Assembly (NCBI RefSeq): GCF_002303885.1
Contig: NZ_MRCM01000018.1
Span: 62,001 to 126,000 of the forward strand
Length of the DNA: 64,000 nucleotides
DNA from: Flavobacterium sp. ACN2
Lineage (GTDB): Bacteria > Bacteroidota > Bacteroidia > Flavobacteriales > Flavobacteriaceae
Reading direction: 5' to 3'
Part shown: positions 2,494 through 60,532 of the stretch, piece by piece
How positions within the stretch are numbered: position 1 is the first letter of the stretch
Layout of the letters: each line of letters begins with the position of its first letter
Translations under genes and position numbers: made by a program
Notes under the pieces: generated by a model
Told to the model about the DNA's origin: nothing
Database searches by the model: none
What the model saw: the letters and a program-made list of their open reading frames with translations, nothing else

Positions 2494-5400
2494 ATGGATA
2501 AAAAAATATTCTCTTTTTTGTTTTCTACACGATTAATGGCCGTTCTTTTTTTAACATTCGCAATTGCAATGGGTATTGGAACTTTTATCGAAAGTAAATA
2601 CAATACCGATACGGCTAGAATACTAATTTACAATACTTGGTGGTTTGAGGCAATTATGGCCATCTTTATGCTGAATTTCTTCGGAAATATCAAAAGATAT
2701 CAATTGCATAAAAAAGAAAAATGGGCAACTCTTTTATTACACCTTGCTTTTGTTTTTATCCTTTTAGGAGCTTTTATTACAAGATATATTAGTTACGAAG
2801 GAATGATGCCAATTCGCGAAGGCGCGGCAGAAAACCAAGTATATTCAGATAAAACCTTTTTAACCATTTTTGCTGATGGCGAATATAAAGGGGAAATGAA
2901 AAGAAGGGTTTTTGAAAAAAATCTTTTATTGTCTCCTGTTACCAATAATGATTTTAGCATTTCAGGAAAATTTGACGAAACTCCTTTTGAAGTGACCTAT
3001 TCGAACTATATCATGGGAGCAAAAGAAGTGGTTAAGCCAGATCCAAACGGAACTTTATACCTTAAACTAGTTGAAGCCGGAGCGGGTGGGCGAGAAGAAC
3101 ATTACCTAAAAGAAGGTGAAGTTCAGAACATTCACAATGTTTTATTTGCTTTAAATAAGCAGACAGACGGTGCCATTAACATCAATACAACTGGAAAAGA
3201 ATATACAATCCAAACTCCGTTTGAGGGTGAATTTATGCGAATGGCAGATCAATTTAAAGGAAAAGTTACAAAAGATAATGTACAGCCTTTAATGATGCGC
3301 TCATTATATAGCATTGGAGATATTAGAATTGTATTTCCAGAGCCTCCATTGAAAGGAAAAGTGGATTATGAATCGAATAATGATTTTAAAGCAAAATCTC
3401 ATTCTGACGCTTTAGTAGTTAAAGTAAAAGCAGAAGGACAAGAAAAAGAAGTGATGCTTTTTGGTTCTAAAGGACAAGTTGGAGAAGCTAAAACAGTAAA
3501 AATTGGCAACATAGAATATTCTTTATTTTACGGAAGTAAAGCTTATATTTTGCCATTTAAAGTTCGTTTGAACGATTTTATTGCAGAGAAATATCCTGGA
3601 ACAGAAAAAAGTTATTCTTCATACAAAAGTAAAGTAACTGTTCAAGATTCAACAGAAACTTTTGATGCTGATATTTTTATGAATCACGTTTTAGATTATA
3701 AAGGATTCCGTTTCTTCCAATCTTCATTTGATCCAGACGAAAAAGGAACTGTTCTATCTGTAAACCATGACTTCTGGGGGACAAACATTACTTATTTTGG
3801 TTATTATCTATTATACATTGGTTTAATGGCAATTATGTTTACTAAATATTCTCGTTTTGGTGATTTGAAAAAGAAATTAGAAGCCATTCAGAAGAAAAAA
3901 GAAAAGCTAATTACTATTTTAGTTTTATTGATTAGTTTGAACGGATTTGCACAGCAAACACCTCATGTTCATTCACACGATCATGATCATGACCATGAGC
4001 ATACTGCAGATTCAAATGATCATGCCAATCACGTTACGGCTCCACCAAGCAAGAAACAGTTAGATTCTTTATTGAATATTTACAAAGCGCCAGAAGCACA
4101 CGCAGCAAAATTTGGTCGTTTGATTATTCAGGATGCTGGCGGAAGAATGAAGCCAATCAATACATTTTCATCTGAATTACTTCGTAAAGTAAGTCATAGT
4201 GATAAATATAACGAAATGAATTCTGATCAGGTTTTCTTATCTATGACGCAATATGCGCAGGTTTGGATTCAAGTTCCTTTGATTTATATTAAATCTGGAA
4301 ATGACAGTATTCGTAAAATTATCGGAATCGATTCTAAAGATCAATACGCTCCTTTTGTAAAATTCTTTGATGAACAAGGAAATTATAAATTATCTCCTTA
4401 TTTAGATGCAGCTTACAAAGCAGCAAATCCGAATAATTTTGAGAAAGATTTTGTTGAGACTGATAAAAAAGTAAACTTAATGGAATCGGCATTAAGCGGA
4501 AGTATTTTAAGAATCTTCCCAATTCCAAATGATCCAAACCACAAATGGGTTTCTTATTTAGAGCGTGAAAGTGCTGGTTTTAAAGGAATGGATTCTACTT
4601 ACGTAAAACAAATTCTTCCGTTATATTTTAGCGCTTTAAATAACGGTTCTATCGAAAAAAACTTCGATACAGCAGATAATTTAGTAGAAAGCATCAATGG
4701 TTTTCAAAAGAAATTTGGAGCTAAAGTAAGACCAAGTGAGCAAAAAATCGATGCAGAGATTGCTTACAATAAGTATGATGTATTTAAAGTTTTGCCTTAC
4801 TGGTATATTACAGTAGCTATTTTGATGTTAATATTTACGATTTTAAATATTTTCTTTGAGAAAAAATGGCTTCGTGTTACCGTAAACGTTTTCCACGTTA
4901 TGGTGGGATTATTGTTTGCACTTCATACGGTAGGATTAATTGCACGCTGGTATATTTCTGGACACGCACCTTGGAGTAACGCGTACGAATCTATTGTATA
5001 TGTGGCTTGGGCAACTATGTTCTTCGGACTTGCTTTTGATAGAAAATCTAAATTAACAGTTGCTTCATCTGCATTTGTTACAGCAATGATTTTGATGGCT
5101 GCTTATATGAACTGGATTGACCCTGAAATTGCAAATTTACAGCCGGTGCTTAATTCTTACTGGTTAATGATTCACGTTGCAGTAATCGTGGCTAGTTACG
5201 GCCCATTTGCATTAGGAATGATTTTAGGTTTTGTTGGTCTTGTATTGATTTTCTTTACAACTGAGAAAAACAAAACTAAAATGGACTTACATATTAAAGA
5301 AATAAGCTATATCAATGAAATGGCCTTAACAATTGGTCTTATTATGTTGACTATTGGAAATTTCCTTGGCGGACAATGGGCAAATGAAAGTTGGGGACGT

Positions 5401-5715
5401 TACTGGGGATGGGATCCAAAAGAAACTTGGGCTTTAATTTCAATTATGGTTTATGCCTTTGTTATTCACGCTCGTTTTGTACCTGCGCTAAGAGGAAAAT
5501 GGTTCTTTAACTTAATGAGTATGTTTGCTTTTATTTCGATCTTATTTACTTATTATGGAGTGAATTTTCACTTAGTTGGTCTGCATTCTTATGCAAGCGG
5601 AGAAGCACATTCATTAAACTGGGTATATTATTTACTAATTGCCATTAGTATAATTGGAGCAATTACGTATCCAAAATATCATAAATACTACAAAACTAAA
5701 AAAGTAAAGAAATAA
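2494..5715 (+). CDS. ccsBA: Fused CcsB(ResB)-CcsA(ResC) cytochrome c biogenesis protein
   Basis: System II haem delivery and haem-cytochrome c ligation in the inner membrane, 1073 residues. The first half is ResB-like: membrane segments near residues 10-30, 45-65 and 75-95, a long periplasmic domain, and a further segment near 430. A linker then starts with a signal-peptide-like stretch (ITILVLLISLNGFAQ) followed by an alternating His/Asp run near 490-510. The second half is CcsA with several membrane helices and the haem-handling WWD-type motif WGRYWGWDPKETW near residue 970. Conserved His residues flank this motif. The protein probably arose by fusion of two genes, the second keeping a relic signal peptide. 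Confidence 0.93.
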   Translation: MDKKIFSFLFSTRLMAVLFLTFAIAMGIGTFIESKYNTDTARILIYNTWWFEAIMAIFMLNFFGNIKRYQLHKKEKWATLLLHLAFVFILLGAFITRYISYEGMMPIREGAAENQVYSDKTFLTIFADGEYKGEMKRRVFEKNLLLSPVTNNDFSISGKFDETPFEVTYSNYIMGAKEVVKPDPNGTLYLKLVEAGAGGREEHYLKEGEVQNIHNVLFALNKQTDGAININTTGKEYTIQTPFEGEFMRMADQFKGKVTKDNVQPLMMRSLYSIGDIRIVFPEPPLKGKVDYESNNDFKAKSHSDALVVKVKAEGQEKEVMLFGSKGQVGEAKTVKIGNIEYSLFYGSKAYILPFKVRLNDFIAEKYPGTEKSYSSYKSKVTVQDSTETFDADIFMNHVLDYKGFRFFQSSFDPDEKGTVLSVNHDFWGTNITYFGYYLLYIGLMAIMFTKYSRFGDLKKKLEAIQKKKEKLITILVLLISLNGFAQQTPHVHSHDHDHDHEHTADSNDHANHVTAPPSKKQLDSLLNIYKAPEAHAAKFGRLIIQDAGGRMKPINTFSSELLRKVSHSDKYNEMNSDQVFLSMTQYAQVWIQVPLIYIKSGNDSIRKIIGIDSKDQYAPFVKFFDEQGNYKLSPYLDAAYKAANPNNFEKDFVETDKKVNLMESALSGSILRIFPIPNDPNHKWVSYLERESAGFKGMDSTYVKQILPLYFSALNNGSIEKNFDTADNLVESINGFQKKFGAKVRPSEQKIDAEIAYNKYDVFKVLPYWYITVAILMLIFTILNIFFEKKWLRVTVNVFHVMVGLLFALHTVGLIARWYISGHAPWSNAYESIVYVAWATMFFGLAFDRKSKLTVASSAFVTAMILMAAYMNWIDPEIANLQPVLNSYWLMIHVAVIVASYGPFALGMILGFVGLVLIFFTTEKNKTKMDLHIKEISYINEMALTIGLIMLTIGNFLGGQWANESWGRYWGWDPKETWALISIMVYAFVIHARFVPALRGKWFFNLMSMFAFISILFTYYGVNFHLVGLHSYASGEAHSLNWVYYLLIAISIIGAITYPKYHKYYKTKKVKK

Positions 5716-5744
5716 ATAATTTACAATAATTATTAATTCATAAG

Positions 5745-5771
5745 AAAGGCTCAACACTATGTTGAGCCTTT
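5745..5771. terminator. Bidirectional hairpin terminator
   Basis: A perfect 12-bp stem (AAAGGCTCAACA) with a 3-nt loop, followed by a T-run on the plus strand and preceded by A-rich sequence. It separates the convergent ccsBA and DUF3667 genes. Confidence 0.85.
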
Positions 5772-5781
5772 TTTTATATTT

Positions 5782-6516
5782 CTAATCTGAAAATTTACCC
5801 GAGAGAAGAAGCACAATAGCAGTTAGTATTAAAAAGCAGATTAAAAAGATAAGGTGGCTTAATATGGATAATAAAAATGCTTTTGTTTTAGATATTTTAT
5901 TGAAGAACTGAATATTGGTCCAAAAGATTAAAACAATACCAATAATATACATGGCGTAAGTATACTGCTGTATGTGTGAAGTATGATTGAAAAAAATCAA
6001 CGCTGGTATTGTTAATAGCTGTACAGAAATTCTTTGTGCAGCTTTGAAAGTATTAAGCACAAAAAGTTCCACAAAATTATAACCTTGTTTTCTAAAAACG
6101 AGATACGTACCAATAGTATAAATAGGAATGGAAGCTACTGTTACCCATGAGAAATGGGTCGCGAAAAATTCGTTTAAATAATCAGAATCTATGTTTGGAC
6201 TCTTTACCGAATCAAAAGTATTAATGTGAAAATAATGATACAAAACCCCATAAAGCGTCGCAAGAACCACAACCAATGATAAAGGCTTAAAATGACGAAC
6301 TCTTTTTCCTTCTATAAATTCGCGGATAGAATGGCCTGGCCTTGTAAACAATTGTTTTAGAGAATACAAAATACCTTTATCAAAATGCAATAAACCGTGC
6401 TGAATGTCGTGCCACAAAAAATGAATATTGATCTTGTGTGTTTCTGCAGGCTGACCGCAATTATTGCAATAATGACCTCTAAAAACCTGATGGCAATTTT
6501 TGCATATTATTTCCAT
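5782..6516 (-). CDS. DUF3667 membrane protein with N-terminal zinc ribbon
   Basis: 244 residues. The N-terminus has two Cys-x2-Cys knuckles (CKNC at 5-8 and CNNC at 17-20) that should form a zinc ribbon. Next comes the conserved DUF3667 block with a GILYSLKQLFTRPGHSIREF motif, and then about five hydrophobic membrane segments. The family is widespread in Bacteroidota and has no established function. It is followed 19 bp away by the DoxX gene upstream on the same strand, so the two could share a transcript. Confidence 0.8.
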   Translation of the reverse strand: MEIICKNCHQVFRGHYCNNCGQPAETHKINIHFLWHDIQHGLLHFDKGILYSLKQLFTRPGHSIREFIEGKRVRHFKPLSLVVVLATLYGVLYHYFHINTFDSVKSPNIDSDYLNEFFATHFSWVTVASIPIYTIGTYLVFRKQGYNFVELFVLNTFKAAQRISVQLLTIPALIFFNHTSHIQQYTYAMYIIGIVLIFWTNIQFFNKISKTKAFLLSILSHLIFLICFLILTAIVLLLSGKFSD

Positions 6517-58420: not shown

Positions 58421-58637
58421 TTGGTGTAAAATATTTTAATTTTAGCTAATATAGAAAAACCTTACAAGGAAATTGTCTGATCTTAAGTAATTAATTAAAA
58501 ACTTTCGGAAACATTTTTTATGTCCTTCTAATTCAGAATAAAAGAAATTCTAAAATTTAAAATTCAGTTTTTGATAGCTTATCAAATAAATGTAGTTTAG
58601 CTAAAATTTAAAAAAAATTCTTCAAAAAGTATTTCAA

Positions 58638-59480
58638 ATGAAATGGATTACCAGAGAAAGACCCAAAATAGATCGAATTGCCTGTCCGTGGCTTATTCGA
58701 AAATTTGTCGATCCTGAATCTGAATTTATTTATGTTCCTTTTAATGACGTTATAACCAAGGCAAAGGAACTTGGCGCCATTCCGTTTGATATTCCAGATG
58801 TTGAGTTTACTCATTATAATGAAGAAAGCACTTTTGATTATATAGTCAAAAAATATGAAATTAAAGATCCGGCAATTAAGATTATTGCAGGAATTGTACG
58901 CGGCGCTGATACTGATAGGCACGAAATTGCTAAAGAATCGGCGGGACTTTGGGCCATTTCTGCTGGATTGGCTTATAATATTACCGATGATTACGAGCTA
59001 TTAGAAAAAGGAATGCTTTTGTATGATGCCTTATACAGTTGGGCAACTCATTTACATCAGCAAAATCATTTGCAGAATAGTCCATTTGAAAAACTATTGC
59101 ATGAAGTGTATAATAAGTTTTTGAATGACAAAAAAACATCGGGCAAAACGCCATCTTGGGTAAAAGATTTAAAAAATATAATTCAAGATCAGATTGATAC
59201 TCAGTTTACTTTTGATTTAAAGAAAATTTCGAGCGAATTAGATTTGAATCCGTCGTATTTGTCTCGAGAATTTTCAAAGCATTTTGAAGATTTGAATTTT
59301 GGCGAATACGTTAGAAAACTTCGTATTGAAAAAGCAATTCATCTCATCGAAAATTCCTCGAGTACTTTAACAGAAATTGCTTATATAACGGGCTTTTCTG
59401 ATCAAAGTCATTTTACGAGAATTTTCAAACTTCATACAGGAAAAAATCCTTCTTCCTATAGAAAAAAAACAAAAAAGTAA
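58638..59480 (+). CDS. Fusion of ChrB-like (chromate resistance) domain and AraC-type HTH
   Basis: 280 residues. The N-terminal part (about 1-150) matches the chromate-resistance ChrB C-terminal domain: MKWITRERPKIDRIACPWLIRKFVDP at the start, then FTHYNEESTFDYIV and IVRGADTDRHEIAKES (possible metal or oxyanion-binding residues). The C-terminal part (about 175-277) has two AraC HTH units (LNPSYLSREFSKHFEDLNFGEYVRKLR and GFSDQSHFTRIFKLHTG). So the oxyanion-sensing domain probably regulates DNA binding directly. No chrA transporter is near. Confidence 0.85.
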   Translation: MKWITRERPKIDRIACPWLIRKFVDPESEFIYVPFNDVITKAKELGAIPFDIPDVEFTHYNEESTFDYIVKKYEIKDPAIKIIAGIVRGADTDRHEIAKESAGLWAISAGLAYNITDDYELLEKGMLLYDALYSWATHLHQQNHLQNSPFEKLLHEVYNKFLNDKKTSGKTPSWVKDLKNIIQDQIDTQFTFDLKKISSELDLNPSYLSREFSKHFEDLNFGEYVRKLRIEKAIHLIENSSSTLTEIAYITGFSDQSHFTRIFKLHTGKNPSSYRKKTKK

Positions 59481-59563
59481 ACCAGATACAAAAGGTAAAT
59501 TGGGTTCTATTTTTTGAAAACGAATGCTTCTAGCTTTGTTTGTCTAATCAAAAACTAGAAACA

Positions 59564-60061
59564 ATGTCATTTAAGCATATTTTATTTTTTACAGTACTAC
59601 TTACAGGTTTTACGTCTTTTTCTCAAACTACATATCCTAAAATAGTGGGATATTTTGGCATTATGCATCCAATAGTTACAATTAATGAAGATGAAACTAC
59701 TGTAAATTTTAGGGATTATTACGCTGTTGGTTTTCCTACTGGAATAAATATCTGGAAAAACGAAAAAATCGGATTCTCATTTGAAATCGTTCCCAACATA
59801 AAAGAGGATCAAGGAACGAGCAAAGTAACCAATTTGCTATTTCATCCAGGTGTTTTGGTCGCTTTAGGAAAAGGCTACACATTTGCCGGAAGAGCAGCAT
59901 TTGAAAGTGGTGGCAGATATGGTTTTACTCCAGTTTTTAATAAAACAATTATAAAAAATACAAACTGCAGTTACTACGTTGCTGTGCCATTGCCCGTTCG
60001 TTTTGGAAATGATCATCCTGCTAGTTTTACGGTAGGTTTTCAGTTTGGAATTGCTTTTTAA
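59564..60061 (+). CDS. Exported or outer-membrane protein of unknown function
   Basis: 165 residues from ATG at 59564; the TTG at 59540 is rejected because the signal peptide (FKHILFFTVLLTGFTSFSQ) starts after 59564. The mature part has amphipathic beta-strands with a GYFGIMHPIV and VAVPLPVRFGNDHPASFTVGFQFGIAF ending, the terminal aromatic residue expected of an outer-membrane barrel. It could be an 8-strand barrel. It lies 83 bp behind the ChrB-AraC gene and could be its target. Confidence 0.7.
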   Translation: MSFKHILFFTVLLTGFTSFSQTTYPKIVGYFGIMHPIVTINEDETTVNFRDYYAVGFPTGINIWKNEKIGFSFEIVPNIKEDQGTSKVTNLLFHPGVLVALGKGYTFAGRAAFESGGRYGFTPVFNKTIIKNTNCSYYVAVPLPVRFGNDHPASFTVGFQFGIAF

Positions 60062-60136: not shown

Positions 60137-60532
60137 ATGAAAACTAAAATGATATGGGCCAACTTGGTTTCGAACGATATACAGAAAACAATTCAATTTT
60201 ATACTGCTCTTGGTTTTAAGCAAAACGGAGAAGAGACAAAAGAATTAGTTAGTTTTGTTTTTGGAGAAAATGATTTTGTAATTAATTTTTTCGCGCCAAA
60301 AAGACTAGAAAATGCTATAAAAGGAAAACTATCCAACACGGCTGTAGATAATGAAATTATATTTTCTTTGTCTGCAAATAGTGTAGAAGAAGTGGATCTT
60401 TGGCATCAGAAAATAAAAGAAATAAAGGGAACTGTTTTTTCTGAGCCTGAAAATTTCGAGGTCGGTTATACTTTTGGTTTTTCAGATCCAGACGGGCATA
60501 AATTTAATTTTCTGTATTGGCCAGGAATGTAA
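60137..60532 (+). CDS. VOC-family (glyoxalase/bleomycin resistance-like) protein
   Basis: 131 residues with two beta-alpha-beta-beta-beta units. Start KMIWANLVSNDIQKTIQFYTALGFKQNG, end FSDPDGHKFNFLYWPGM are typical VOC elements, with a metal ligand in the C-terminal His/Asn. Members include lyases, dioxygenases and drug-binding proteins; the specific role is open. 39 bp ahead of the GNAT gene. Confidence 0.86.
   Translation: MKTKMIWANLVSNDIQKTIQFYTALGFKQNGEETKELVSFVFGENDFVINFFAPKRLENAIKGKLSNTAVDNEIIFSLSANSVEEVDLWHQKIKEIKGTVFSEPENFEVGYTFGFSDPDGHKFNFLYWPGM

Follow-up and report, generated by a model that had tools for sequence, protein, structure and literature searches.

In O. tritici (TnOtChr) and C. 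metallidurans (pMOL28), the chr operon begins with chrB, which encodes a regulator carrying a ChrB_C sensor domain. In the mutant analysis published for O. tritici ChrB, the roles of sensor and of DNA-binder were assigned to different residues: chromate induction was lost in the R180A, R187A and H229A mutants, R175, R182, R195, R196 and C213 were dispensable, the H258A mutant displayed high expression without chromate, and R18 and R23 of the N-terminal half showed the behavior of residues that bind DNA (PMC3817168). ChrB_C also exists as the stand-alone protein ChrF, which in O. tritici is described as containing 1.0 Mn per protein and as having superoxide dismutase activity (PMC4779226), and the two halves of ChrB are reported as separate genes in Arthrobacter (PMC2751784).

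Here, we describe a locus of Flavobacterium sp. ACN2, located in a stretch of 64,000 nucleotides that we call the window (contig NZ_MRCM01000018.1, positions 62,001 to 126,000), where a ChrB_C sensor is joined to a DNA-binding domain of the AraC type and followed by the gene of a predicted outer-membrane barrel. We consider it likely that this AraC-type protein responds to chromate and controls, probably as an activator, a Bacteroidota chr operon from which chrA was lost at this locus and in which the regulator and the barrel are kept under purifying selection. The pair of domains and the operon type are known; the novelty lies in the wiring, the candidate promoter site and the barrel partner.

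Features of the locus, in window coordinates:
58571 to 58600, + strand: putative promoter of the regulator gene (TTG at 58571-58573, 19 bases, TAGTTTAG at 58593-58600), from comparison of the sequence with the consensus
58638 to 59480, + strand: regulator gene, ChrB_C sensor plus AraC helix-turn-helix, 280 amino acids (open reading frame and Pfam; full length in relatives)
58644 to 59042, + strand: ChrB_C domain, residues 3-135, with candidate chromate-contact residues R6, R13 and H59 (Pfam, conservation)
59229 to 59465, + strand: AraC-type DNA-binding domain (HTH_18), residues 198-276 (Pfam; AraC-family chains of the PDB)
59471 to 59510, + strand: candidate operator, with AAAAAAGTAA at 59471-59480, GATACAAAAGGTAAA at 59485-59499 and TTCTAT at 59505-59510 (conservation)
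59531 to 59538, + strand: -7 promoter element TAGCTTTG of the barrel gene, 20 bases 3' of TTCTAT (Bacteroidota consensus)
59564 to 60061, + strand: small outer-membrane-type beta-barrel protein, 165 amino acids, corrected start (start in relatives, AlphaFold2)

A ChrB_C sensor is fused to an AraC-type DNA-binding domain

The first-pass annotation had proposed a ChrB-like domain, sought within residues 1-150, fused to an AraC helix-turn-helix, and Pfam searches bear this out: PF09828 (ChrB_C) matches residues 3-135 with 168.7 bits (cut-off 25, E 1.1e-49) and PF12833 (HTH_18) matches residues 198-276 with 72.7 bits (cut-off 33.6, E 3.1e-20). The AraC part also matches PF00165 (E 2.6e-12), and residues 189-280 align with AraC-family chains of the PDB. 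This regulator is the sole ChrB_C match of the source genome (5.4 Mb in 46 contigs, 99.95% complete).

The protein thus shares the C-terminal DNA-binding domain of the AraC/XylS family and differs from that family by its effector domain, which is ChrB_C and not one of those usual in AraC proteins. Compared with proteobacterial ChrB, the N-terminal ChrB_N domain is replaced by a C-terminal AraC domain: PF20229 (ChrB_N) finds no match in the window regulator, whereas it matches all three full ChrB proteins tested (C. metallidurans, Acinetobacter and Sphingobium). Related proteins already carry the annotation "chromate resistance protein ChrB domain-containing protein", and our literature searches, which covered open-licence papers, turned up none that describes an AraC-fused ChrB.

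Residues required for chromate induction of ChrB are conserved in the fusion

Using residue spacing together with an alignment with C. metallidurans ChrB1, we mapped R180, R187 and H229 of O. tritici ChrB onto R6, R13 and H59 of the window regulator. The spacing of R180, R182, R187 and R195 is that of R6, R8, R13 and R21, and the distance between R187 and H229 is that found in ChrB1 when aligned to H59. R6, R13 and H59 are invariant in all 80 of the best 80 among at least 558 relatives, and among 40 diverse ChrB_C domains they occur in 38, 39 and 39, respectively. O. tritici H258 probably corresponds to R88, judging from a spacing that is one residue off; this position is an arginine in 28 and a histidine in 12 of the 40 domains. 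The same key residues of the ChrB_C sensor are shared with proteobacterial ChrB. In the alignment, ChrB1 is 33% identical to the window regulator, and a tree separates the regulator from the ChrB rows (branch 100/100).

In this tree, the fusion groups with ChrF and with rhodanese-ChrB_C proteins, apart from ChrB (100/100); within this group it does not form one clade, and long branches were flagged. ChrF is the closest sensor: identity is 61% with the ChrF-type protein of Pedobacter and 55% with that of C. metallidurans. ChrF starts like the window regulator with MKWITRE and differs by having no DNA-binding domain. The rhodanese-ChrB_C proteins, annotated as "sulfurtransferase/chromate resistance protein", are another fusion of the same sensor type, in which the partner is a rhodanese (Pfam, two tested) and not a helix-turn-helix; their genes adjoin chrA in three of the four plasmids inspected. 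As a separate observation on N-terminal halves, those of the ChrB proteins encoded at L145:810-1781 and L167:1428-2351 weakly resemble the Cas2-like domain of PaaX regulators, the two matches (E 0.006 and 6e-5) falling short of the curated cut-off.

The fusion belongs to a Bacteroidota version of the chr operon

A contig scan retrieved at least 558 relatives among at least 596 matched stretches, and the best 80 loci were analyzed. By their titles, these best 80 of at least 558 relatives are mostly from Flavobacterium, the other hosts being Pedobacter, Ferruginibacter, Dyadobacter, Emticicia and further Bacteroidota. Across the same 80 loci, 78 have a full-length fusion and 68 have the barrel gene immediately after it; chrA occurs in the 2.5 kb downstream in 40, and 14 have a following gene for an Fe/Mn superoxide dismutase (the identity of ChrA and of the dismutase being confirmed by Pfam on one example each). 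Sorted by downstream content, barrel and chrA occur together in 31 loci, the barrel alone in 37, chrA alone in nine, and neither of them in three. In F. johnsoniae, strain CI04 has the regulator, the barrel and chrA in this order (locus L082).

In an even sample of Bacteroidota, ChrB_C was present in 18 of 395 genomes, which we read as 15 with an intact fusion, two with seemingly broken fusions (G777 and G861) and one with another architecture (G683). The latter protein (L155) has 322 amino acids, with ChrB_C at its C-terminal residues 185-316 and no AraC part, so that another ChrB_C architecture exists in Bacteroidota. Within the genus, 35 of 199 genomes carry ChrB_C, and a hand count gave 31 genomes with ChrB_C and the barrel, four with ChrB_C only, six with the barrel only and 158 with neither. 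At one further locus (L269 of G308, 2704-5890), the fusion has a different C-terminus, with HTH_18 cut and below its Pfam cut-off, and lies directly before a transposase pair that looks IS21-type by eye.

Gene order places the fusion where chrB would stand. On a Pedobacter plasmid, a Tn3-family transposase and a recombinase are followed by the fusion, the barrel (67% identical to the window barrel over 143 residues), chrA, a ChrF-type gene and DUF1259; on C. metallidurans pMOL28, the order is chrB, chrA, superoxide dismutase, chrE, a ChrB_C-only gene and, further on, DUF1259. From the comparison of these two gene orders, we conclude that the fusion stands for chrB in the Bacteroidota operon. 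Since relatives hold the fusion and the barrel before chrA, sometimes followed by the dismutase, an arrangement also known from classical chr operons, the locus represents the chr operon in a Bacteroidota form that, in the window, lacks chrA. The absence of chrA noted in the first-pass annotation hence holds at this locus and fails as a general rule, given the 40 of the best 80 (of at least 558) relatives that carry it downstream; likewise, the suggestion of an uncharacterised oxyanion- or metal-sensing pair keeps its likely joint role in oxyanion sensing and loses its setting outside a chromate context, since chrA is present in relatives.

The neighboring gene encodes a predicted outer-membrane barrel

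The neighbor had been described as a signal-peptide protein, perhaps a small barrel, and the predicted structure agrees, with a revised start. A start at the TTG at 59540 was rejected: relatives begin at an ATG equivalent to 59564, and the TTG at 59540 lies directly behind the -7 element, so that translation probably starts at 59564. The AlphaFold2 model (mean pLDDT 89.8) displays a signal-like helix followed by an 8-stranded transmembrane barrel. Its top structural match is a designed barrel (Z 16.3), and it resembles the small outer-membrane barrels OprF (15.8), NspA (15.6), OmpW (14.9 and 14.6), OmpA (14.8) and OmpX (up to 11.5). It differs from such proteins in sequence, with 2-11% identity among the matches listed, and in being genetically tied to a regulator. 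The window protein has no Pfam family over cut-off, and OMP_b-brl_2 matched six of 34 barrel members at E values up to 1 (best 3.4e-4), the window protein not being one of them. The barrel may have a part in anion passage.

A glyoxalase-family gene lies 3' of the barrel gene on the same strand (60137-60532). Members of its protein cluster occupy the equivalent place in nine of 83 loci, including that of the window, and the gene may be read through from the barrel promoter.

A conserved candidate operator precedes the barrel gene

The -33/-7 consensus of Bacteroidota promoters is reported as TTTG/TANNTTTG, with a -33 element that is described as generally weak in F. johnsoniae (PMC6847099). By this consensus, the regulator gene would have a promoter of its own upstream, whose -7 element is one base off. 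A second promoter region, ahead of the barrel gene, is conserved among relatives. It follows the regulator gene in a fixed order, AAAAAAGTAA, GATACAAAAGGTAAA, a CTAT box, 20 bases and TAnnTTTG, and the candidate operator comprises a GATACAAAAGG half and the CTAT box. The gap was 20 bases in 71 of 73 matches among the 81 regions in which the site was discovered.

A strict form of the site (NNCTAT-N20-TAnnTTTG) was found in 99 of 120 regions 3' of the regulator and in 3 of 6000 first-order Markov-randomised sequences; a form with a looser -7 element, defined after divergent regions had been viewed, was found in 110 of the 120 and in 72 of the 6000. Many of these regions stem from close relatives, and among the 103 distinct ones the strict site occurs in 82 and the loose site in 93. 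The count is weaker in the 23 distinct regions held out from discovery (strict 11, loose 16), and 15 divergent loci contain two strict and 12 loose sites. At the window, AAAAAAGTAA at 59471-59480 overlaps the regulator stop codon; as the upstream half of the operator overlaps the regulator 3' end in many relatives, its conservation may partly be coding.

Two genomes present the site in trans. In G304 and G360, barrel and site are both missing from the regulator locus (L116 and L114, respectively), and the site is found at a barrel-chrA locus elsewhere in the genome. The sequence 5' of the site has diverged between these two genomes; since this flank resembles a former regulator 3' end, the site may partly be inherited. 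Five genomes with a barrel and no ChrB_C match, all except G329, were checked. In four of them (G385, G444, G446 and G447), the strict site is absent from the 9-kb stretches searched, and three of the four have chrA beside the barrel. The fifth, G305, retains the site next to broken barrel and chrA genes. Genome-wide, the search of the source genome gave five matches, as many as the reversed control, and none of the five lies on contig 1, home of a second chrA; we claim no regulon. On the whole, these sequence patterns fit a site that is read by the regulator ahead of barrel and chrA genes.

The regulator would probably activate the barrel promoter upon chromate binding

In the mechanism that we propose, a ChrF-type ChrB_C sensor would occupy the usual effector-domain place of AraC proteins, and chromate inside the cell would bind a basic pocket containing R6, R13 and H59. 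The resulting change of sensor shape would position the AraC domain on the conserved element at 59471-59510, which would take the position of the -33 box ahead of the -7 element TAGCTTTG, and the regulator would then recruit RNA polymerase, so that transcription of the barrel gene would be switched on. Relatives would transcribe chrA, and sometimes the superoxide dismutase, from this promoter as well, so that chromate would be pumped out. At the window locus, where chrA is gone, the barrel would be the remaining output, perhaps altering anion passage across the outer membrane. The regulator would presumably act as a dimer. Self-comparison of the operator consensus for direct repeats gave at best 13 of 24 positions, at an offset of 18.

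The same regulator and target could also work by repression, the protein covering the -33 region and leaving upon chromate binding, a reading that we consider less probable. AraC-family proteins are mostly activators, which argues against it, and so does the architecture of the barrel promoter, which has a perfect -7 element but lacks the TTG that precedes the -7 element of the regulator's own promoter by 19 bases; such an arrangement suits an activator-dependent promoter. The weight of the missing TTG is tempered by the generally weak -33 element reported for F. johnsoniae (PMC6847099). In favor of repression, the conserved box overlaps the place where a -33 element would lie, as a repressor site might. 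Since O. tritici ChrB is described as repressing a promoter that is constitutive in its absence (PMC3817168), activation is a step of our model that we infer.

The regulator-barrel pair is retained where chrA is lost

No chrA gene is present at the window locus. The source genome has one ChrA-family gene elsewhere, which is 30% identical to the operon type, belongs to another subfamily and is a ChrA by Pfam (L143, G000 contig 1, 386000-398000); its neighbors, as judged by eye from translations, are an ArsR-type regulator, a GNAT gene, an arsenate-reductase-like gene and an ACR3-like transporter. Across the genus, a hand count found operon-type ChrA (E 1e-167 or better) in 18 of the 35 genomes with ChrB_C, one of them, G408, with an interrupted gene, and not in the other 17, of which 15 retain the barrel (G313 has a barrel with an internal stop codon). 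These counts would suit a sensor whose signal is not chromate, such as manganese, superoxide or another oxyanion, with chrA being an accessory of that response, and ChrF, the closest sensor type, is reported as a manganese superoxide dismutase protein (PMC4779226). We find this rather unlikely: R6, R13 and H59 correspond to residues on which chromate induction depends, and no further partner is as common as chrA among the best 80 of at least 558 relatives. We thus retain chromate as the probable inducer.

Some relatives have damaged genes. In G408 (L271, 3432-5914), chrA is split in two with transposase-like ORFs in between, as judged by eye, and the regulator and site ahead of it are intact; the regulator is broken or short in others (G340 and G483), and chrA remnants are found in G392 and G481. 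At the window locus, the two genes evolve under purifying selection: in the window clade, made of eight loci none of which has chrA at the locus, the regulator has a median dN/dS of 0.037 and the barrel one of 0.061 (28 pairs), the ratios being rough as dS is about 1 or above. With the same limit, two chrA-linked clades have regulator medians of 0.050 and 0.045 and barrel medians of 0.063 and 0.069; another clade without linked chrA has 0.055 (regulator) and 0.103 (barrel). That the locus is the decaying, functionless remnant of a chr operon, as the missing chrA and the broken genes of relatives might suggest, is very improbable given that both genes are intact with these low ratios and that the promoter site is intact. 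Instead, the regulator-barrel pair looks to be maintained by selection where chrA is unlinked.

ChrB_C may be a degenerate DHH phosphoesterase

Searches by sequence gave no solved structure related to ChrB_C, the listed matches falling in the AraC part and the rest being at chance level, and in whole-model Foldseek searches of two libraries the AraC domain dominates the matches. A literature search for a link between ChrB and DHH proteins gave a single paper, on an unrelated subject. The model of the fusion has a mean pLDDT of 75.9, with ten-residue means of 78-93 over residues 1-140. When residues 1-138 were compared with known structures, the best matches were of the DHH type, with Z up to 7.6, values below 8 being in the common range according to the tool. 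Among the matches listed, 12 reach Z of 4 or more over this N-terminal part: a PAP phosphatase (8a8k, 7.6), PggH (7d62, 7.4), NrN (9lq9, 6.7), CDC45 (6cc2, 6.1), two replisome chains (5.4 and 5.2) that we take from their length to be CDC45, three family II pyrophosphatases (9m0m, 1k20 and 1wpp; 4.9, 4.5 and 4.1), two solute-binding proteins (4.8 and 4.4) and one PTS subunit (4.0). Sequence similarity links the three pyrophosphatases to NrnA, and the other six DHH-type entries are presumably members of the DHH group as well. In a viral library, two DHH proteins are among the 50 matches listed, and the top TM-score by query length among these 50 (0.33) belongs to NrnB of phage AR9, though at an E value of 1.0.

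A relationship at the sequence level was rejected. In hhalign comparisons, the 40 ChrB_C domains scored 10.8 against NrnA and 8.7 against RecJ, lower than the means of 100 column-shuffled controls (13.9 and 14.5) and than the scores of most of 25 unrelated families, whereas the positive control, NrnA against RecJ, reached a probability of 72. Other alignment runs placed R6-D12 opposite motif I and D91 opposite motif IV, with P about 0.3. D12, D51, H59 and D91 are nearly invariant (38, 40, 39 and 39 of 40 domains) and would fit DHH motifs by eye. When placed in the same manner, motif I (H-x3-D-x-D) reads R6-x3-K10-x-D12 and the DHH motif reads T58-H59-Y60; only D12 and H59 would be retained. 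We tentatively suggest, giving the idea somewhat less than even weight, that the ChrB_C domain of ChrB, ChrF and the AraC-fused sensor may be a degenerate DHH phosphoesterase, whose metal/phosphate site would have become an oxyanion pocket with R6, R13 and H59 on former catalytic motifs, and which would have been joined, apparently more than once, to ChrB_N, rhodanese and AraC domains.

Discussion

The exchange of one DNA-binding domain for another in nature supports the view of ChrB_C as a sensing module. Bacteroidota promoters are unlike those of E. coli, and the locus would add a second type of promoter under chromate control, one that could be used in Bacteroidota. Should the DHH-like fold hold true, it would offer a structural way into the question of how an oxyanion is read. 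Finally, that the barrel is retained after the loss of chrA points to a novel step of chromate tolerance at the outer membrane.
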